Shown piece by piece: positions 6,203 through 15,037 of a DNA stretch of 64,000 nucleotides. The notes beneath the pieces were generated by a model that worked only from the letters and a program-made list of their open reading frames with translations, searched no databases and was not told the DNA's origin. The translations under genes were made by a program, and so were the position numbers. Within the stretch, counting starts at the first letter, position 1; each line of letters opens with the position of its first letter. This stretch comes from Acidobacteriota bacterium (GTDB taxonomy: Bacteria; Acidobacteriota; UBA890; WLXD01), in contig WLXD01000005.1 in assembly GCA_012103255.1 (NCBI GenBank), positions 62,001 through 126,000 on the forward strand, given 5' to 3'.

Positions 6203-6397
6203 CTAGGAGATGTAACCGAGGCCCTGGAGCTTCTTCCGGATGTCATCCTCGGAGTCGGCCTCCTCGAGAACTGCCAGTTCCTTCTCCAATGCGTGCGTGA
6301 TGAATTCCTCGACTGAGGAATAGCCAGCGATGTCCGCGTACTTCTTGACGCGAGCGAGCAGGTCCGTGTCCAACTTGATCTTGCTACCACCGAACAT
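6203..6397 (-). CDS. Small ribbon-helix-helix-like protein with LGY tail
   Basis: 64-residue protein. The N-terminal part (SKIKLDTDLLARVKKYADIAGYSSVEEFITHALEKEL) looks like a ribbon-helix-helix fold: a short strand, a helix, a turn at GYSS and a second helix. The C-terminal part is acidic and then ends DDIRKKLQGLGYIS, nearly the same as the ends of CysC and of the small protein at 13641. GGAG lies seven bases before the ATG. The gene sits between the phosphodiesterase at 6424 and the membrane protein at 5346. It could bind DNA or act as a small partner protein; the sequence does not decide. Confidence 0.8.
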   Translation of the reverse strand: MFGGSKIKLDTDLLARVKKYADIAGYSSVEEFITHALEKELAVLEEADSEDDIRKKLQGLGYIS

Positions 6398-6423: not shown

Positions 6424-8424
6424 CTACTCAGGGTTGATGACCGTGATCGGCGTGGTGCCGTCCGGGAAATCGTCAATACCGAATTCGGCCAGAAGGGCCG
6501 CCGCGAGATTCTGCAACGATGTGGCCTCGCGCTGCAGCGGGCGACTTGCGAAGAGGACTCCCGGAACTGTCCGGTGATCCATGATGTGGTCACCGGACCA
6601 CTCCTCGGTGTTATCGGTGATGACTTCTTCGGCGATACCGCCGAGGGCGTTGTTGCCGGAGCCGCGAGTGCCGTTCGCGAAACCCACGATGATGTCGGGA
6701 CCGATCTCGAGGTTTCCGCGGTCGTGAAAGTCGCGCTCGCGGATGTAGATCTTGGTAACCGCTGGCTCGCCGGTCACAGGGTCGATTGTCGCGAGCAGGT
6801 CACGCTCAATCTGCTCGAGTAGGGCCATCCGGTCGCCCGGGGCCACCTGGCCCGAAGGCTCGCGGCCCCGCAGGTTCAGATACAGAGCACTGATCCCGAT
6901 GGAGTACGCCCGCGTCCGTCGCCAGTCGACCCCGTTGAAGAACTCCTTCACGGGCAGGCTCGTCTGACGTTGGAGCGTCATGTACCCGTTCTCGACTAAC
7001 CAGGTATTGAGGTTGAACGAGCGGCGCCAGCTGGCGAAACCGTGATCGGACATCACCACCAGCGTCGTGTTGTCGTCGATCGTGTCGAGCGTTTCCCCGA
7101 TCAGCGCGTCGAATTCCTCGTAAATGTTCGGGATCAACTCGCGATACTGATCGTGCAGTGCCGGGTCGTATTGCGGGTGCCCGGTGTCTCGTGTGACGCC
7201 CCACATGACATGTGAGGTCTGATCGCCGCTGCCGAAATAGGAGAACAGGAACCCGCCCTCGAAAGTGTCCCGCAAGTACCGGAACTGCGCGACGGTCTCC
7301 TCGCGGGCGATACGGGTCTGCTCGAGGAACTCGGCGAGATCGAGTACGCCGTTGTTGATCGCGTGGGTGTCCTCGGGCATCTCCTGCGTGTAGAAACGCC
7401 CGGTCACCTCGGCCAGCTCCAGGGCAAACTCCGCGGGCTCGGCGATGGGTAGCGCAGGCGCCATCGGGTCGACCTGAATCGGTGTTACGTAGACTTCGAA
7501 CTCGGGCCGGACTGATTTCAGGAAGAAGCGCACGGCACCGGTCATCGACGCGAGGTAGGGCAGCATTTCGAAGTCGAGCGTCTTCCAGTCGCTCCACTCG
7601 CCGGCCTGCATCACGAATTGCTGAGTGCCGACTTCGAATTTCGCGACGTCCTCGTCAGGGTCGACGTAGACGACGAAGTCGGTGCTGATGGCGTCATTCT
7701 CGGCTTCGGTTAGCGGGTTGTCGTCGAGGCCGATGATCGTGCCTTCGAACTTGCCGTCGATGACATCTGCGGGATAGATGAACCCGCCGCTTACGTCAGT
7801 CTTCATGAACTGGCGGCGGTCGGTCGAAAAGAAGAACGACTCGCCCGGGCTGCCGCGCAGGTCGGGCGTTCCCATTCCGGAGAGTTCCCGCTCGCCCGCG
7901 CCCACTGGCGGGTAGTTGGCCGGCATCCGAACGACGGTTGCCGGAATTCCGGCATCGGCGAGATGCTGCCAGAACGCGGTTCCGTGACGGCCGAGCTTCG
8001 GGTCGCCTCCCCAGAGCGGGAACACGTATCCGGCCATTTTGAACTCAGGCCCGGGAGGCTCGTTCAGGGCCGTGGCCTGGTAGGGGAACCCGAAGGGAAG
8101 CCCGGACGTGAGGTCGCGATGCAAAAAGTCGAAGATGCCGTGACCGCCGGAATCGAGTCCGGTGATGAAGTTCGACCAGGCGACCGGACTCTGCGGCGTG
8201 GCGGCGGTTTCCAGCGGCCCGAACTGACCCTCGCGCTCCATGCGCGCGAGATTCGGAAGGCGACCGGCATCGATCATCTCGCGCACGAGCGTGTAGTCGA
8301 GCCCGTCGATGCCCATGACGATCATGTTCTCGGTGGGCGTTTGGGCGCGCGCTCCAAGACTGAAAAGCGCACCCGCCGCGGCGACGGCAAGAAGGGCGAT
8401 TGCAGAAAGACGGAGTGCCTTCAT
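6424..8424 (-). CDS. Exported alkaline-phosphatase-superfamily phosphodiesterase
   Basis: 666-residue member of the type I phosphodiesterase/nucleotide pyrophosphatase branch of the alkaline phosphatase superfamily. An N-terminal signal peptide (hydrophobic stretch ending SLGARA, about residue 27) places it in the periplasm. Metal-site elements are visible: VMGIDGLD near 37, a candidate nucleophile serine in QSPVAW near 82, VVMSDHGF near 458 and SGDH with MDHRTVPGVLF near 606. The substrate is unknown; members split phosphodiesters, phosphomonoesters or sulfate esters. Its ATG overlaps the stop of the next AP-family gene upstream (ATGA), and GGGAG precedes it by eight bases. It resembles the 8421 product along its length, so the two are paralogues. 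Confidence 0.85.
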   Translation of the reverse strand: MKALRLSAIALLAVAAAGALFSLGARAQTPTENMIVMGIDGLDYTLVREMIDAGRLPNLARMEREGQFGPLETAATPQSPVAWSNFITGLDSGGHGIFDFLHRDLTSGLPFGFPYQATALNEPPGPEFKMAGYVFPLWGGDPKLGRHGTAFWQHLADAGIPATVVRMPANYPPVGAGERELSGMGTPDLRGSPGESFFFSTDRRQFMKTDVSGGFIYPADVIDGKFEGTIIGLDDNPLTEAENDAISTDFVVYVDPDEDVAKFEVGTQQFVMQAGEWSDWKTLDFEMLPYLASMTGAVRFFLKSVRPEFEVYVTPIQVDPMAPALPIAEPAEFALELAEVTGRFYTQEMPEDTHAINNGVLDLAEFLEQTRIAREETVAQFRYLRDTFEGGFLFSYFGSGDQTSHVMWGVTRDTGHPQYDPALHDQYRELIPNIYEEFDALIGETLDTIDDNTTLVVMSDHGFASWRRSFNLNTWLVENGYMTLQRQTSLPVKEFFNGVDWRRTRAYSIGISALYLNLRGREPSGQVAPGDRMALLEQIERDLLATIDPVTGEPAVTKIYIRERDFHDRGNLEIGPDIIVGFANGTRGSGNNALGGIAEEVITDNTEEWSGDHIMDHRTVPGVLFASRPLQREATSLQNLAAALLAEFGIDDFPDGTTPITVINPE

Positions 8425-10547
8425 GAGTTCGTCTCCCTGGGCGGGTCGTTCGAGTCTCGGAAGAGTGGTTGGCCATCCATGTGCTTGGGGGGCTCCACGC
8501 CGAACTGTTGCAGCGCCGTGGGTGCGATATCGATGAGCGCCGGGTCGTCGACATCGATTGCGCGGTTGCAGAAGAGGACGCCCGGAACGAGGCGCGGATC
8601 CACACAGTGGTCGCCGCTCCAGGCCTTGACGTTGTCCTCGTAGAGGGGCGCGTCGACCACACCGGTGGCGCAGTCCCAGGACGTGCGGTATCCGCGGTTG
8701 TAGCCGATCACGAACTCGGGGGCGTTCTCGAGGTAAGGCCCGGTGTAGAGCTTTGCGGTGTCGAACGCCTCGATGATCGCGACCTCGTCGTTGTCTTCGT
8801 CGCGCAGCCCCTTGAGCTTGCCCGCGATCTCTTCCTTCAGTGCAGGAACATCAGCGGGATCGACGATGCCCTGCGCCTCGCGGCCTGCGATGTTGAAGAA
8901 CATGCCCGAAAGGCCGAGGCAATACGCCTTGGTGCGGGACCAGTCGACATCGAGCAGCCATTCCTCGCTGCCTGTCTTGCCTTCCTTGAGATAGAGGTAG
9001 CCGTTGTCCATCAACCAGCGGTTGAGATTGACGCCGCGCCGGAAAGAGGCGAAGCCGTGGTCGGAGAGCACCATGAGCAGATCGTCCGGCCCGACTTTGT
9101 CGAGGAGTTCACCAACGATCTTGTCGTTGCGTACGTAGATCTCTTCGATCGCGTTGCGACAGTCGGACTCGCGCCCGTCGTCCGCCGGATGCCCCTTTTC
9201 GAGGTAGCGCCAGTACATGTGCTGGATGCGATCGGTCGCGTCGAACACGCAAACGAGCGATCCCTTGCGGAGTTTGTCGAGCGACGTGAAGAACATCTCC
9301 TTGCGCTCGTCATCGATGTCGAGGGCCAGTTCGCGAAAATGACGGTCCTCGATGACGTCTTCGTTCAGCGCCCACGTGTCCTCCGCGAGGCCGAGCGTCG
9401 AGTATTTGCCCTGCATCTTCGCGAGATACACCGAGTAGTAGTCAGGATGCGAGATGGGCATCGCCGGCTTGTCGGGATCGATGGCGATCGGCGTCATGTA
9501 GAGCGAGAAGTGGCCGTTCATCTCGGTCATCATCACGCGCGCGATTCCACGAACCTTGACCATCGGGGCAGCGTTGAAGGTGAGCTGCACCCAATCCGAT
9601 AGCTCGTTGAGCTGGAGGTCGACCTCTTCGTCGCCAAAGCGAACTGCGGCGGTGCTGTCTGTCCGGTCGAGATCGGCACTCACGGGTAGTTCGAGCGGGG
9701 GAGTGCCCTGTCGAAGAATGTTCTCAGGGCCGAGCAACGTCCCTTCCACGCGGTCGCCATCCATGTGGACTTTCACCCGCATGCCGCCTTCCTTGAAGGT
9801 GTCGTCATCAGGCCGCGTAGTGAATAGCAGGAACGTCCCCTGCGTCCCGAGCAGGTCCGGGACGCACATCGCAGACAACTGAGCGCCGTAGAACCGGTCG
9901 GGCGGGAACGTGATCGGGACACGGACGACCGTGCTCCAGATGTTGTGTTCGCCAAGGATCGTCCAGAACGGCTTCGACTTCCGCAGCAGCCGGATCTCCG
10001 GCTTTTCGCGAGGGATCTGGAACGGTCCGATGTTCAGGAACTTGTCGATCGAGCCAATCTTGGTGGACGAGAGCACCGGCAAGTACGTGCGGCGATCGCG
10101 ATCCAGGAAGTCGTAGATGTTGTGGCGCGCGGGCCGAGAGCCCGTGGAGAACGATGACCAGGCGACAGGGGAGAGCGCCGGGAACGTCGTCTTGAGCGGC
10201 TTGTAGCAGCCCATCTTGGCGAGCCGCTCGAAGTTGGGCAGTTTGCCCTCGGCCATGAACTTGTCGGTCAATTGCGGATCCTGACCGTCGAAGCCGCAAA
10301 CGATGAACCGTTTGATCTTCGGTTTCGCGCTGGTCCGGCGCGTCACCGCACGCCATAGAACCCGGAACGGCCAGATCAGGAGCGACGCGAACACGATGAG
10401 GATCGTGGAAAACAGCACGAGGAAGCTGCTGACGAACGCGAAGCCCGCGCCAGGACCGACGTAGGCATCGGCGGTTCCCGGGATCGCGATTGCGGCGGCC
10501 AGAATCAGCGCCGCGGCGTAGGTCCGCCAACGAGAAGCTTGAAGCAT
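8421..10547 (-). CDS. Membrane-anchored alkaline-phosphatase-superfamily enzyme
   Basis: 708-residue paralogue of the 6424 product. It starts with two hydrophobic segments (about 10-27 and 34-56) separated by AYVGPGAGF, followed by the basic stretch RVLWRAVTRR. The positive-inside rule then puts the catalytic domain in the cytoplasm, whether or not the first segment is cleaved. Catalytic elements: FIVCGFDGQD near 83, nucleophile candidate in LSPVAW, MVLSDHGFASFRR, and SGDHCVDPRLVPGVLF near the C-terminus. The substrate is unknown. Its start and the stop of the upstream gene overlap by one base (TGATG). The location in a PAPS-forming operon suggests a role with sulfated or nucleotide substrates, which is inference. 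Confidence 0.84.
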   Translation of the reverse strand: MLQASRWRTYAAALILAAAIAIPGTADAYVGPGAGFAFVSSFLVLFSTILIVFASLLIWPFRVLWRAVTRRTSAKPKIKRFIVCGFDGQDPQLTDKFMAEGKLPNFERLAKMGCYKPLKTTFPALSPVAWSSFSTGSRPARHNIYDFLDRDRRTYLPVLSSTKIGSIDKFLNIGPFQIPREKPEIRLLRKSKPFWTILGEHNIWSTVVRVPITFPPDRFYGAQLSAMCVPDLLGTQGTFLLFTTRPDDDTFKEGGMRVKVHMDGDRVEGTLLGPENILRQGTPPLELPVSADLDRTDSTAAVRFGDEEVDLQLNELSDWVQLTFNAAPMVKVRGIARVMMTEMNGHFSLYMTPIAIDPDKPAMPISHPDYYSVYLAKMQGKYSTLGLAEDTWALNEDVIEDRHFRELALDIDDERKEMFFTSLDKLRKGSLVCVFDATDRIQHMYWRYLEKGHPADDGRESDCRNAIEEIYVRNDKIVGELLDKVGPDDLLMVLSDHGFASFRRGVNLNRWLMDNGYLYLKEGKTGSEEWLLDVDWSRTKAYCLGLSGMFFNIAGREAQGIVDPADVPALKEEIAGKLKGLRDEDNDEVAIIEAFDTAKLYTGPYLENAPEFVIGYNRGYRTSWDCATGVVDAPLYEDNVKAWSGDHCVDPRLVPGVLFCNRAIDVDDPALIDIAPTALQQFGVEPPKHMDGQPLFRDSNDPPRETNS

Positions 10548-11833
10548 CAGTGTTCGAACTCCCGCTCCAGATGTGCGGCGATGTCGCCGATCCAGAGTTC
10601 CTCACCTTCGATCGGATACGGCGCCAGCAAGAAGGCGTCGTCCCACGTGTGCATGCCCACCAAATCGGTCCGAGAGAAGACCTCACTCGCGGTCGGCGAC
10701 GCCTTGAGGTCGAACCCCGGATGAGCGAGCGCGACCAGGTCCGGACCGTGCTCAGCGCAAGGTCCTTCGTACAGGTCGGCAGCGTCCAGGACGTCGCGGA
10801 TGACCGGTCGCCCATGATACCGCAGCGCGTGCAGTGCGTCGGCCAGTTCACGCTTCACCGCGGCGCGCTTTTCCGCAGACACCGAGCCGCGTGCGAAGCG
10901 TCCCTGCGAGTGCACGTAGAGCCGACTTGGATCGAGGGCGAAAGCCTGGGTTTCACGCTCGATATCCGCGAGTTCCGTGGCGCCGCTTCCGAGTCGCAAG
11001 TGGCCGGTCTCGCGCAGGAGCGCGTTGAGCTGCACTTCCTGCTCGATGGCGCAGAATCCATGATCCGAGAGCATCCAGAAATGGCTCTCCGGGTCGTCGC
11101 TCTCATCCGCGAAGCGCGACCACACCTGACCAACAAAGCGGTCCACCTGGCGGTGATAGTCGATAGCTTGCTCGTGGCGAGGGTGAGTCGGATCAACCAC
11201 CGCGTCCCACAGGTAGTGGTACAGGCGGTCGGTGCCGGTAATTACAACCTGGAGGTAGTCCCAGTCCTCTTCCTGCCACAGCCGACCGAGCGCTGCGGCC
11301 CGCGACTGCAACGTGTATTCGAGGTCCTGGAAGAGCCAGTCGTGATCGCCTCGTGCGCGGGCAGTGTCGACGTCGATTCGATAGTCCTGACGCCGCAACG
11401 TGCCAAGCCATTTCAGAGGCTTCACGGATCGCGACAGATCGATTGCGACGAACCCCGACACCAGAACGCCAGGAATGGTCCGTGCCGGATACGTCGAAGG
11501 CTGGTTCAGGACGATCGACTGCAGGCCGCGGCGGCCCAGTCGATCCCACAGCGTGGGCACCTCGACCCGCGAGAAGTCCGGAAATTCGAGGGCGTACGTT
11601 CCTGGGTTGAGGTCCGTGAATCCGAAGATCCCGTGGGTCCCCGGATTGGCGCCCGTCATGAAGCTCGTCCAGCTGACCGATGAGATCTCAGGCAAAGAAG
11701 CGCGCATCGAACGCAGGTGACCTGCTTCGATGCGCGCTGCAATGTTCGGCATGACGCCATCGGCCGCGAGGCGCTCGAGGAGTCCCACAGGAACTCCGTC
11801 GAGGCCAACTACGCAGACGCGACGCTTGGGCAA
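10547..11833 (-). CDS. Cytoplasmic alkaline-phosphatase-superfamily enzyme
   Basis: 428-residue, shorter and more divergent member of the same superfamily. It has no signal peptide or membrane segment. Motifs: VCVVGLDGVP at the N-terminus, ISSVSWTSFMTG with a candidate nucleophile serine near residue 48, HGIFGFTDLNPGT, WMLSDHGFCAIEQ near 250, and MHTWDDAFLLAP near the C-terminus where the last metal histidine is expected. The start is probably TTG, 11 bases after the cysC stop. Spacing and overlaps leave little doubt that it is transcribed with cysC and sat. The specific substrate cannot be assigned. Confidence 0.82.
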   Translation of the reverse strand: MPKRRVCVVGLDGVPVGLLERLAADGVMPNIAARIEAGHLRSMRASLPEISSVSWTSFMTGANPGTHGIFGFTDLNPGTYALEFPDFSRVEVPTLWDRLGRRGLQSIVLNQPSTYPARTIPGVLVSGFVAIDLSRSVKPLKWLGTLRRQDYRIDVDTARARGDHDWLFQDLEYTLQSRAAALGRLWQEEDWDYLQVVITGTDRLYHYLWDAVVDPTHPRHEQAIDYHRQVDRFVGQVWSRFADESDDPESHFWMLSDHGFCAIEQEVQLNALLRETGHLRLGSGATELADIERETQAFALDPSRLYVHSQGRFARGSVSAEKRAAVKRELADALHALRYHGRPVIRDVLDAADLYEGPCAEHGPDLVALAHPGFDLKASPTASEVFSRTDLVGMHTWDDAFLLAPYPIEGEELWIGDIAAHLEREFEH

Positions 11834-11844
11834 GCTCGCGTGCC

Positions 11845-12444
11845 CTAGAGGTACCCGAGCGCCTGCAACCGCTCGCGGATCACCACTTCCTCTTCGGGGG
11901 AGGTGTGATTGTCCTCGCCGGGCGGGATCAGACCCATGAGTTCCAGTGAGCGCACGATCTTGTCGAGGCTCTCTTCGAGGGACTCCTGCTCCGTGTTCAC
12001 CACGATCTCGGCGTTCTCAGGCGCTTCGTACGGGTCGGAGACCCCGGTGAAGTTCGCGATCTCGCCCGCCAGTGCCTTCTTGTAGAGGCCCTTGGGGTCG
12101 CGCTCGGTGAGTTTCTCGATCGAGCACTCCGTATACACCTCGACGAAGTTCGCGGTGCGGGCACGGATCTCGTCGCGGACCGACTTGTACGGCGAAATCG
12201 CTGCGGTAATCGCGACGACCTCGTTGCGGCTCAACAGGTTGGCGACGAATCCGATGCGACGGACGTTGGTGTCGCGGTCCTCCTTCGAGAAACCAAGACC
12301 CTTCGAGAGATTGGTGCGCACCTCGTCGCCGTCGAGGATCTCGACCATGACCCCGCGCTCCAGCAGAACGGGTTCGATGGCCTGCGCCAACGTGCTTTTT
12401 CCGGAGCCCGACAGGCCCGTGAACCAGAGGGTAAAGCCCTTCAT
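11845..12444 (-). CDS. cysC: Adenylyl-sulfate (APS) kinase
   Basis: Phosphorylates APS to PAPS, the activated sulfate donor, in the cytoplasm. About 199 residues. Visible motifs are the P-loop GLSGSGKST near residue 11, LDGDEVRTNL, the substrate segment GFSKEDRDTNVRRIG, and RDPKGLYKKALAGEI with FTGVSDPYEAP. The start at 12444 has GGAG six bases upstream; an earlier ATG at 12456 would add four residues. After the normal kinase end it carries an extra acidic linker and the tail VIRERLQALGYL, which is shared with two small proteins of the same operon and is not part of the kinase fold. It follows sat by 21 bases. Confidence 0.95.
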   Translation of the reverse strand: MKGFTLWFTGLSGSGKSTLAQAIEPVLLERGVMVEILDGDEVRTNLSKGLGFSKEDRDTNVRRIGFVANLLSRNEVVAITAAISPYKSVRDEIRARTANFVEVYTECSIEKLTERDPKGLYKKALAGEIANFTGVSDPYEAPENAEIVVNTEQESLEESLDKIVRSLELMGLIPPGEDNHTSPEEEVVIRERLQALGYL

Positions 12445-12465
12445 GACTGTCTCCATATGGCGCGG

Positions 12466-13641
12466 TCAGGAAGCGACCGACGCGCTCTCGTTCGAATAGT
12501 GGCGTTGCAGGATTTCCGAGATCTCGGGGCGCGTGAACTCGGGCGGCAAGGACTCGCCGCGGCTGAGCATTTCGCGGATCCGCGTGCCGGAAAGGAAGAC
12601 GTGCTGATCACTGTCGTGCGGGCATGTCTTCTGCGATGCCATGTTCTGGCAGCTGTGGCAGAAGAACGCGTGGTCGAAGAAGAGCGGCGTGATGCCGATC
12701 TCCAGTGCCTCGAATTCCTCGAAGATACGATGGGCGTCGTAGGTGCCGTAGTACCCACCGACGCCGGCGTGGTCGCGCCCAACAATGAAGTGAGTGCAGC
12801 CGTAGTTCTTGCGCACGATGGCGTGGAACACAGCTTCGCGCGGACCTGCGTAGCGCATCGCTGCCGGCAGAATCGACATGGCAACGCGACCGGCAGGGTA
12901 GTAGCCCTTGAGCAGCGCGTTGTAGCACTCCAGTCGAACATCAGCCGGAATGTCGTCGAACTTAGTCTCACCCATGATCGGGTGGATCAGCATGGCGTCG
13001 ACGAGTTCGAGCGCGCACTTCTGCAAGTACTCGTGCGCGCGATGGATCGGGTTCCGGGTCTGGAACGCCGCGATCGTGTCCCATCCCTTCTCCTTGAAGA
13101 GGAAACGAGTCTCGCGCGGGTCGAGGCGGAAATCCTCGAACTCTGCGTGGACCGGTCGCTGCAGCATGGTGATGCGGCCACCCAGGTAGGTGTCGCCAGT
13201 CTTCTGCAGGTAGGCCACGCCGGGATGCGCGGTGTCGGTGGTCTTCAGGACCGTAAGCGCCTCGCGCTCCTTGTCCACCTTGTAGATGTCGGACACTTCG
13301 AGCACGGCGTAGACGGTCCCATCGTCGCTCTGGAGCGCCACGTTGTGTCCCGACTGGATGCCTTCGGCGGCGATCAGCTCCGAACTCGCGGCCAACGTGA
13401 TCGGAATGGTCCAAGGTATGCCGTTGGCGAGACGACCGTGTTCGCAGACGTGCTCGTAGTCGCGCTGGTCCATGAATCCCTCAAGCGGGCTCATGGCACC
13501 GGTTGCGATCATCTCGATGTCTGAGAGTTCGCGTCGGTTGAGCGTGACGTGCTTGAGGGCGGGGAGCTCGGCGCGCCAACGCTCTTGCTCTGCTTCGGTT
13601 GCGATGCGGCTGATGAGGCGGCCGCCGTGAGCTTTGATCAT
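12466..13641 (-). CDS. sat: Sulfate adenylyltransferase (ATP sulfurylase)
   Basis: Makes APS from sulfate and ATP. 391 residues, the single-chain Sat type rather than CysND. Diagnostic motifs: QTRNPIHRAHEY near residue 194 (the HxxH active-site element), GRDHAGVGGYYGTYDAH near 274, and a C-terminal Cys/His cluster (FCHSCQNMASQKTCPH) like that of zinc-containing bacterial and archaeal ATP sulfurylases. The start overlaps the stop of the small gene upstream (TGATG). With CysC it forms PAPS. No APS reductase or dissimilatory genes are nearby, so the pathway here points to sulfate transfer or assimilation via PAPS. Confidence 0.96.
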   Translation of the reverse strand: MIKAHGGRLISRIATEAEQERWRAELPALKHVTLNRRELSDIEMIATGAMSPLEGFMDQRDYEHVCEHGRLANGIPWTIPITLAASSELIAAEGIQSGHNVALQSDDGTVYAVLEVSDIYKVDKEREALTVLKTTDTAHPGVAYLQKTGDTYLGGRITMLQRPVHAEFEDFRLDPRETRFLFKEKGWDTIAAFQTRNPIHRAHEYLQKCALELVDAMLIHPIMGETKFDDIPADVRLECYNALLKGYYPAGRVAMSILPAAMRYAGPREAVFHAIVRKNYGCTHFIVGRDHAGVGGYYGTYDAHRIFEEFEALEIGITPLFFDHAFFCHSCQNMASQKTCPHDSDQHVFLSGTRIREMLSRGESLPPEFTRPEISEILQRHYSNESASVAS

Positions 13642-13853
13642 CAGAGGTATCCCAGATTCTCGAGTTTCTTGCGGATCGCCACCAGCTCGTCGTCACTCAG
13701 TTCGCCGACCTTCTCGGGCTCGAGACTGCCGACAAGATCCCGGAGCACGAAGACGATGAAATCCGTCGGCGAGCTGAAGCCGGAATCTCCGATCACCTGT
13801 TGCAGGCGAACGTAGAGCGGGCGAGGAATCTTGATGCTGACGCGGTCGGACAT
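13641..13853 (-). CDS. Small ribbon-helix-helix-like protein, first gene of the sat operon
   Basis: 70-residue protein from the ATG at 13853, followed directly by sat with a one-base overlap. The N-terminus SDRVSIKIPRPLYVRLQQVI is a typical ribbon-helix-helix strand and first helix, then GFSSPTDFIVFVLRDLV makes the second helix. The acidic second part ends VAIRKKLENLGYL, the tail also found on CysC and the 6203 product. As first gene of the operon, next to tandem repeats in the promoter, it is a good candidate for an autoregulator of RHH type. It could instead be a structural partner of the enzymes. An upstream extension to 13904 is possible but has no better ribosome site. Confidence 0.8.
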   Translation of the reverse strand: MSDRVSIKIPRPLYVRLQQVIGDSGFSSPTDFIVFVLRDLVGSLEPEKVGELSDDELVAIRKKLENLGYL

Positions 13854-13873: not shown

Positions 13874-13917
13874 AGGACTCGCTAGGGTCCAGATCAGGAC
13901 CCAATCAGGACCCAATC
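13874..13917. repeat. Tandem 11-bp repeats, candidate operator of the sat operon
   Basis: Two perfect adjacent copies of AGGACCCAATC at 13896-13906 and 13907-13917, preceded by a degenerate copy AGGGTCCAGATC at 13884-13895 and perhaps a fourth, AGGACTCGCT, at 13874-13883 (plus-strand reading). The period of one helical turn suits a ribbon-helix-helix repressor that stacks dimers on direct repeats. The array abuts the predicted -10 box and lies 20 to 60 bases before the first gene. Confidence 0.6.
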
Positions 13918-13942
13918 GTAACCCTATCGCCGATCTACGCAA
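13915..13942 (-). promoter_or_regulatory. Candidate sigma-70 promoter of the sat-cysC operon
   Basis: On the minus strand TTGCGT (13942-13937), a 16-base spacer and TACGAT (13920-13915). The -10 box runs into the tandem repeats, so a protein bound there would block transcription. The same -10 sequence and spacing are seen at the groE promoter in this window. Confidence 0.45.
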
Positions 13943-14024: not shown

Positions 14025-14828
14025 CTAGTAGTAGCCGCGCAGTCGTTCCGCGAGCTCGGCGTGAATGGCGCCGTTGGATGCCAGCAGCCCGCGCACGTTG
14101 TGCAGGTGGGCCGGGTCGTACTTCACGGGGTTGCCATCGAAGTCGGTCAGGGCTCCGCCCGCCGCAGCCAGGATGGCCTCCGGAGCACAGGCGTCCCAGA
14201 GCTTGGTGCCGATGCTTGGGTGCAGGTACAGGTCGCATGACTGCGTCGCGATGCGGCCGATCTTGAGTCCCACGCTCCCCGAGCGGACCATCTCCGTGAT
14301 TCCGAGGTCCTCCATGATCTTCTGCACGACATCCGGTAGATGGGATCGGCTGCAGATCAAACGTAGGTCGGCGGGTGTAGCGCGGTCGCTCACCTTCATT
14401 GCCGACACCTTGCCGTCGATATCCGACTCGGCGCCGTCGCCGACGATGCCGCGATAGAGCGTCCGCGTTGCCGGCTGGTTCACCACGCCGAGTTGAGGGC
14501 GCCCCTCAACCGCAAGCCCGATCATCACCGCGAATTCATCCGTATGCTTGATGAACTCCTTGGTGCCATCCATCGGGTCGACCATCCACACGCGCCGCAC
14601 GCCTTCGGCGGCCGCAGCTTCGTTGGTCGACTCTTCGGCAATGATGGCGTCCTGGGGAAACTCCTCACGCAACCGGCGCACAATGTGATTGTTGGCGACG
14701 CGATCCGCCTCGGTGACCGGCTCGGTCTCGTTCTTGAGATCCACCTGGAAGTCGCCACGGTAGTAGCCCATGACGAGTTCCCCAGCTTCGCGGGCGATCG
14801 CTTCGGCGGTCTCTAGCTCGTGTTGCAT
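14025..14828 (-). CDS. cysQ: 3'(2'),5'-bisphosphate nucleotidase
   Basis: Inositol-monophosphatase-fold enzyme that removes the 3'-phosphate from PAP (and PAPS), the by-product of sulfate transfer. About 267 residues from the ATG at 14828; an upstream TTG at 14894 would add 22 residues of poor quality. Metal-binding motifs are present: AEES near residue 68, VDPMDGTKEF near 87 and WDACAPEAILAAAGG near 208. It lies 171 bases upstream of the sat operon on the same strand and so may be expressed with it or from its own promoter. Its presence next to sat and cysC completes a PAPS cycle. Confidence 0.92.
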   Translation of the reverse strand: MQHELETAEAIAREAGELVMGYYRGDFQVDLKNETEPVTEADRVANNHIVRRLREEFPQDAIIAEESTNEAAAAEGVRRVWMVDPMDGTKEFIKHTDEFAVMIGLAVEGRPQLGVVNQPATRTLYRGIVGDGAESDIDGKVSAMKVSDRATPADLRLICSRSHLPDVVQKIMEDLGITEMVRSGSVGLKIGRIATQSCDLYLHPSIGTKLWDACAPEAILAAAGGALTDFDGNPVKYDPAHLHNVRGLLASNGAIHAELAERLRGYY

Positions 14829-15037
14829 CTGCGTGTTGTCCGGAGGCAAGGAGGCATCGTGGCCCGGAACGGGCGGCGATCCGCAGCCGATCAAGAGGCT
14901 AGCAGCGCTCGATGGAGCCGGTATGTCATCGTTCCGTGTCCAGAAGGGCGCGTCGCGCTTGACCGCCGCGCGCCGGCGCAGCAGGATCTAGCCCCTGCAC
15001 CAAACGCGTCACGAATTCTGCTCCCGAGAGAACTCCC

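Follow-up and report, generated by a model that had tools for sequence, protein, structure and literature searches.

An array of 11-bp subsites overlaps the promoter of an operon for the synthesis of PAPS, the universal sulfate donor, in the window (the whole stretch of 64 000 nucleotides analysed here, from an Acidobacteriota contig); the first gene of this operon encodes RHH1, a small protein resembling ribbon-helix-helix (RHH) regulators. Array and RHH1 gene recur in distant groups, and the array is therefore very probably RHH1's own switch: judging from sequence comparison, we consider with good confidence that it is the operator through which RHH1 autoregulates the RHH1-sat-apsK-phosphodiesterase operon, most likely as a repressor. 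In the open-licence literature we found no described RHH regulator of sat/apsK, and an RHH1-array switch for a PAPS-synthesis operon has not been described there previously. Such a readable operator, in one phase over several phyla, offers a directly testable control circuit, and the array could be used as a site-based marker for locating the PAPS operon.

Promoter and subsites in the window

The promoter and the subsites are as follows.

13937..13942, minus strand: -35 element TTGCGT (TTGC core); CTTGC is invariant in four related genomes, at a constant distance to TACGAT
13915..13920, minus strand: -10 element TACGAT, within the array; TACG is invariant in four genomes, TACGAT in three same-genus genomes
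13918..13928, minus strand: putative operator subsite 1, GATAGGGTTAC, degenerate; centre 13921, at -3 from the middle of the -10 element
13907..13917, minus strand: putative operator subsite 2, GATTGGGTCCT; centre 13910, at +8
13896..13906, minus strand: putative operator subsite 3, GATTGGGTCCT; centre 13899, at +19
13881..13891, plus strand: putative operator subsite 4, inverted, reading GCTAGGGTCCA on the plus strand; centre 13888, at +30

The minus-strand leader reads CTTGCGT-N16-TACGAT, with TAGGGTTACGAT TGGGTCCTGAT TGGGTCCTGAT CTGGACCCTAG running through the -10 element and beyond. The promoter string TTGCGT-N16-TACGAT named in a preliminary description of this DNA is thus present on the minus strand (TTGCGT at 13942..13937, TACGAT at 13920..13915); a strict consensus promoter scan missed it because TTGCGT is a weak -35 element. 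Also present are the two perfect 11-bp copies and the degenerate third copy of that description, seen in the sequence itself and by TRF, with a perfect ATCAGGACCCA occurring twice at 13893-13917 (period 11, 2.3 copies, 100%, score 50). The one-turn spacing of 11 bp stands, but the earlier count (two perfect repeats and one or two degenerate ones, all direct) has to be revised: with their GGWCC cores placed on the pseudo-dyad there are four subsites with centres spaced exactly 11 bp apart (the subsite centre is one parameter, fitted to the data), and the fourth is an inverted copy, with GGGTCC on the plus strand. A fourth direct repeat that had been proposed, ATCGCCGATCT at about 13926-13936, was discarded (it has no motif match, and one of its 10 columns is invariant in four genomes). 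The array had also been placed between the promoter and the first gene, which is right for its downstream part but not for the whole: it overlaps the -10 box and spans the likely start site.

The array is conserved as a footprint in close relatives. Among three same-genus genomes 39 of 44 array bases are constant, versus 14 out of 80 upstream; 12 of 26 columns are invariant in the 5' UTR and two of 10 in the spacer region (13927-13936). When the same-family genome L007 is added, 27 of the 44 array columns remain invariant versus seven out of 80 upstream. Subsite 4 is conserved in L005 and L006, where subsite 1 reads GATTGGGTTAC.

As an alternative, the leader could act at the RNA level, its GGGTCC..GGACCC inverted repeat forming a 5' hairpin of an attenuator or riboswitch-like element. 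Folding the leader yields a hairpin (z = -1.54) that is kept in L005 and L006, but 15 out of 200 shuffles fold as well or better, and L007 has lost the hairpin yet retains phased subsites; elsewhere both orientations occur at the 11-bp phase, which is explained by DNA binding and not by an RNA stem. With no Rfam match and a weak fold z-score we rejected an RNA element, which is extremely improbable as an explanation of the repeats.

Recurrence and specificity of the array

The RHH1 gene and its operon are found in Acidobacteriota, Planctomycetota and MAGs titled Gemmatimonadetes, Eisenbacteria and Calditrichota (phyla are those of the record titles, which for MAGs may differ from current taxonomy), and RHH1 leaders from all of these carry GATTGGAGTGT units, in most leaders as 11-bp-phased arrays with units in either orientation. 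Alignment of the leader in relatives had been suggested as a check in the preliminary description, with lack of conservation upstream of orthologous operons counting against the proposal; the repeats are kept upstream of RHH-sat operons in several phyla, at the 11-bp phase. The term 'direct repeats' is too narrow for them, as a constant phase with mixed orientation is the rule across loci, with two to seven subsites per array.

An unbiased self-comparison of 50 leaders gave a lag-11 repeat signal in 16 of them (0.36 expected, and at most three in 200 dinucleotide shuffles), with no lag except 11 above five loci, and the word ATTGGAGT is found in 25 of the 50 (0.1 expected from control segments); because loci within phyla share kinship these counts are not independent, and several phyla agree. 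For a learned 11-mer matrix applied to 82 leaders, centre-to-centre distances are 11 (131 cases), 22 (69), 33 (33) and 44 (16), with a minor set at n*11+1 and little else, and both orientations share one phase. Among 52 non-redundant loci, there are 3.0 GATTGGAGTG-type sites per 220-nt leader versus 0.09 in controls, and 35 loci have an exact 11-bp site pair versus none of 959 control segments. The footprint, the cross-phylum lag-11 signal and the 11-bp pairs compared with controls exclude a chance origin of the repeats.

The position of the array relative to the promoter is shared as well. Promoter matches of at least 9/12 occur in 29 of the 82 leaders (2.2 expected), and in leaders with a promoter and nearby sites (e.g. 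L018, L026, L032 and L057) the site centres often fall near -3, +8, +19, +30 and +41, counted from the -10 midpoint. The -3/+8/+19/+30 register in the window equals that of TTGACA/TATAAT-like promoters in other phyla; in our reading, no other single finding ties the window more strongly to the distant loci. Sites spanning about -3 to +30 relative to the -10 midpoint, found in the window, in Eisenbacteria- and Gemmatimonadetes-labelled loci and in some Acidobacteriota- and Planctomycetota-labelled loci, indicate repression. They argue against a predominantly activating or dual role of RHH1, which is quite unlikely overall and has most in its favour where the array precedes the -10 element: in many Planctomycetota (e.g. 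L012, L014, L028) the array, by eye, ends just upstream of a TACACT/TACAAT-like putative -10, so that activation is possible there, and activator or dual action has been reported for Helicobacter pylori NikR and for AmrZ (PMC3325190).

The matrix scan found no recognisable array in some Acidobacteriota relatives (L052, L056, L134, L136-L141 and L143). Seven of these leaders (L137-L141, L143 and L052) have a good sigma-70-like promoter with 7-8 nt between the end of its -10 element and the start codon, so their mRNA is probably leaderless. A distant RHH branch (L145-L151; MEKEF..SIPTSLYKKIEEKIKG, tail EEEEKIKERLKALGYID) also adjoins sat; it has no obvious GGAGTG array by eye and lies outside the motif set. 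In L009, L011, L031, L034 and other Planctomycetota, a gene on the opposite strand lies upstream of RHH1 and its product ends in LGYL or LGYV, so a divergent gene may be a further target of the array; this upstream product is secreted lipoprotein-like in L031 and L079, with tetratricopeptide repeats in L031.

Perfect arrays are private to RHH1-type loci. The perfect pattern TTGGAGTN4TTGGAGT occurs seven times in 39 RHH1-bearing genomes, each time at an RHH1 locus; in a further 39 genomes, in which RHH1 was not detected (from the phylum of Planctomycetes bacterium Poly30), it has no perfect match, and all 45 matches carry a mismatch. One of the RHH1-bearing genomes has a second array (one mismatch per pair), located at a second, paralogous RHH1-sat locus (L079). 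Of the pattern matches in relatives 30 loci were fetched; 12 of these have no RHH1 nearby, all 12 with a mismatch, and such matches are equally frequent in control genomes; the window's own genome has no second array at up to three mismatches. On these two grounds a global regulon was ruled out.

The same data bear on whether the array is bound by some other regulator, with RHH1 a mere bystander in the operon. RHH1 is the binder that we infer; other candidates would be RHH2, a second RHH-like protein whose gene (6203..6397) shares strand and cluster with RHH1, and a global sulfur regulator. But perfect arrays sit solely at RHH1 loci in the two sets of 39 genomes, the second RHH1 paralog has an array of its own and, unlike what a global regulator would give, the window's own genome holds no further array at up to three mismatches. 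Another binder is accordingly improbable, and RHH1 is the preferred one.

The RHH1 protein and its operon

The genes of the operon, and RHH2 beyond it, are listed here in order of transcription.

13641..13853, minus strand: RHH1, a 70-aa RHH-like protein with C-terminal tail ELSDDELVAIRKKLENLGYL; proposed autorepressor
12466..13641, minus strand: sat, sulfate adenylyltransferase (PF01747, 2.6e-96; NCBIfam sopT, 3.1e-130)
11845..12456, minus strand: apsK, APS kinase with an extra C-terminal tail resembling that of RHH1 (PF01583, 2.5e-60)
10547..11833, 8421..10547 and 6424..8424, minus strand: three AlkP-type phosphodiesterase genes (PF01663; synteny in relatives)
6203..6397, minus strand: RHH2, another RHH-like protein, divergent from RHH1 (about 35-38% identity) and sharing its LGY tail

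No library that we scanned names the RHH1 family. The window RHH1 alone has no Pfam match, and an NCBIfam scan gave a NikR model below the cut-off (E 0.08) and none above it. The RHH_1 profile matches 12 out of 38 RHH1 relatives at E<=0.1 (best 9.5e-4; below the cut-off where shown), and a profile of the RHH1 alignment matches two NikRs weakly but in register (E 0.04 and 0.1). The AF2 monomer model (pLDDT 83) has an extended segment at residues 1-10 followed by helices at 11-21 and 29-42; an extra helix predicted at 54-66, ending in LGYL, lies outside the DNA-binding part. In the predicted ribbon R/K4, T/S6 and an invariant K8 (37 RHH1 sequences) form an alternating basic/polar/basic pattern. 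Members of the RHH superfamily have a beta-alpha-alpha topology within about 45 residues and bind DNA as dimers through the ribbon. Membership of RHH1 in this superfamily is supported by weak profile matches and the predicted topology, and the preliminary reading of the first gene as RHH-like agrees with this weak but consistent evidence. The top two Foldseek matches of the model, ParD and DinJ, are non-significant (E about 2), and a structural identification on that basis was dropped.

The sat start overlaps the RHH1 stop codon by 1 nt. In most fetched loci, from many genomes, the genes downstream of RHH1 are sat and/or apsK and AlkP-type phosphodiesterases; in the Acidobacteriota L053, L055 and L056 a phosphodiesterase gene follows RHH1 in place of sat. 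The window's own genome has no match to the PAPS reductase family, which was detected in 14 out of 14 control genomes; at an assembly completeness of 95%, however, the gene could have been missed. With no PAPS reductase match and with Sulfotransfer_3 matches present, the PAPS made by this operon probably serves sulfation. A cysQ gene (PAP phosphatase-like) lies just upstream at 14025-14894 on the same strand, and likewise in L005, L006 and L007, making PAPS synthesis and PAP removal neighbours. RHH2, with an LGYIS tail, is encoded between a phosphodiesterase gene and a gene for an EMC3/TMCO1-like membrane protein, a trio also seen in L059.

The extra C-terminal tail of the window ApsK (SPEEEVVIRERLQALGYL) is closely like the RHH1 tail, and such tails are also found in L025, L026, L027, L029 and L032. 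An RHH1-like tail ends the ApsK of the same operon in eight loci from several lineages. When the fetched loci were searched for the tail in ORFs longer than 130 aa, the matches were almost only ApsK, and RHH1 itself. In the window ApsK the tail falls beyond the APS-kinase domain match; a PDB profile search aligned the RHH1 tail with the C-terminus of a solved APS kinase (E 0.13, non-significant). Because the tail EExxIRxKLxNLGYL matches the ApsK tail in several lineages, RHH1 might sense the pathway by protein contact, in the fashion of an antitoxin: ApsK (or Sat), whether free or busy, would either bind to RHH1 or vie with it for a common partner, and this would adjust how tightly RHH1 holds the 11-bp array, the enzyme being the signal. 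We offer a contact between the two tails as a hypothesis only, and consider sensing of this kind unlikely.

Proposed mechanism and known systems

In the mechanism that we favour, autoregulation by RHH1, one RHH1 dimer would occupy each pseudo-symmetric subsite (core GGAGTG, or GGGTCC in the window lineage), with its two-stranded ribbon (R/K4, T/S6, K8) lying in the major groove. Dimers placed every 11 bp would be aligned along one face of the DNA and may bind cooperatively. As the array reaches from the -10 box to about +25, RNA polymerase would be shut out once all subsites are filled, and the cell's PAPS-making capacity for sulfation would be kept in check; PAPS, PAP or sulfate may be the effector. 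The array itself, its phase, its conservation, its promoter register and its association with RHH1 loci are shown here and support the autoregulation put forward in the preliminary description; binding by RHH1, cooperativity and repression are inferred from them.

Among RHH repressors that act on tandem operators, MetJ and Arc are the classical cases: MetJ, with S-adenosylmethionine as corepressor, binds tandem 8-bp met boxes, and the Arc operator has two half-sites. RHH1 resembles both in being a small RHH-like protein with an alternating basic/polar/basic ribbon and a putative multi-subsite operator over the promoter. However, its array unit is 11 bp rather than the 8 bp of the met box, its arrays have two to seven subsites of mixed orientation rather than two half-sites, and it differs from both proteins in its extra C-terminal helix ending in LGYL, its PAPS-synthesis operon and the lack of an NCBIfam match above the cut-off. 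The nearest known arrangement is that of the omega repressor (ParB of pSM19035), whose dimers are arrayed on 7-bp heptads, direct and inverted, over promoters including its own (PMC4803016, PMC9499535). The shared features are non-palindromic repeats in direct and inverted orientation, a constant phase and promoter overlap. However, omega uses 7-bp WATCACW units (the RHH1 leaders show a lag-7 signal in four out of 50 versus 16 at lag 11) and serves plasmid partition and copy control, whereas RHH1 belongs to chromosomal PAPS synthesis.

Type II antitoxins such as ParD and DinJ also combine an RHH-like N-terminus with a C-terminal helical tail (in RHH1, as predicted) and are encoded by the first gene of an autoregulated operon. 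RHH1, however, has no adjacent toxin gene, its neighbours being sat, apsK or phosphodiesterases, and a toxin–antitoxin reading was rejected.

AmrZ, an RHH regulator, binds two GG-containing half-sites with an A/T-rich linker in negative autoregulation (PMC3325190). GG-containing half-sites are shared with RHH1, for which negative autoregulation is proposed; AmrZ differs in having two half-sites, a larger protein and a different regulon. The operator in the window lineage is GATTGGGTCCT versus GATTGGAGTGT elsewhere (GGGTCC versus GGAGTG core), and in the same lineage Ser6 replaces Thr6 in RVTVKIPRP, the predicted DNA-contacting strand. The coincidence of the GGAGTG to GGGTCC change with Thr6 to Ser6 is suggestive only, because it is a single evolutionary event; it may provide a natural specificity change for studying DNA choice by RHH proteins. 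AmrZ contacts DNA via K18, V20 and R22 (PMC3325190); their positional counterparts in RHH1 would be R4, T/S6 and K8.
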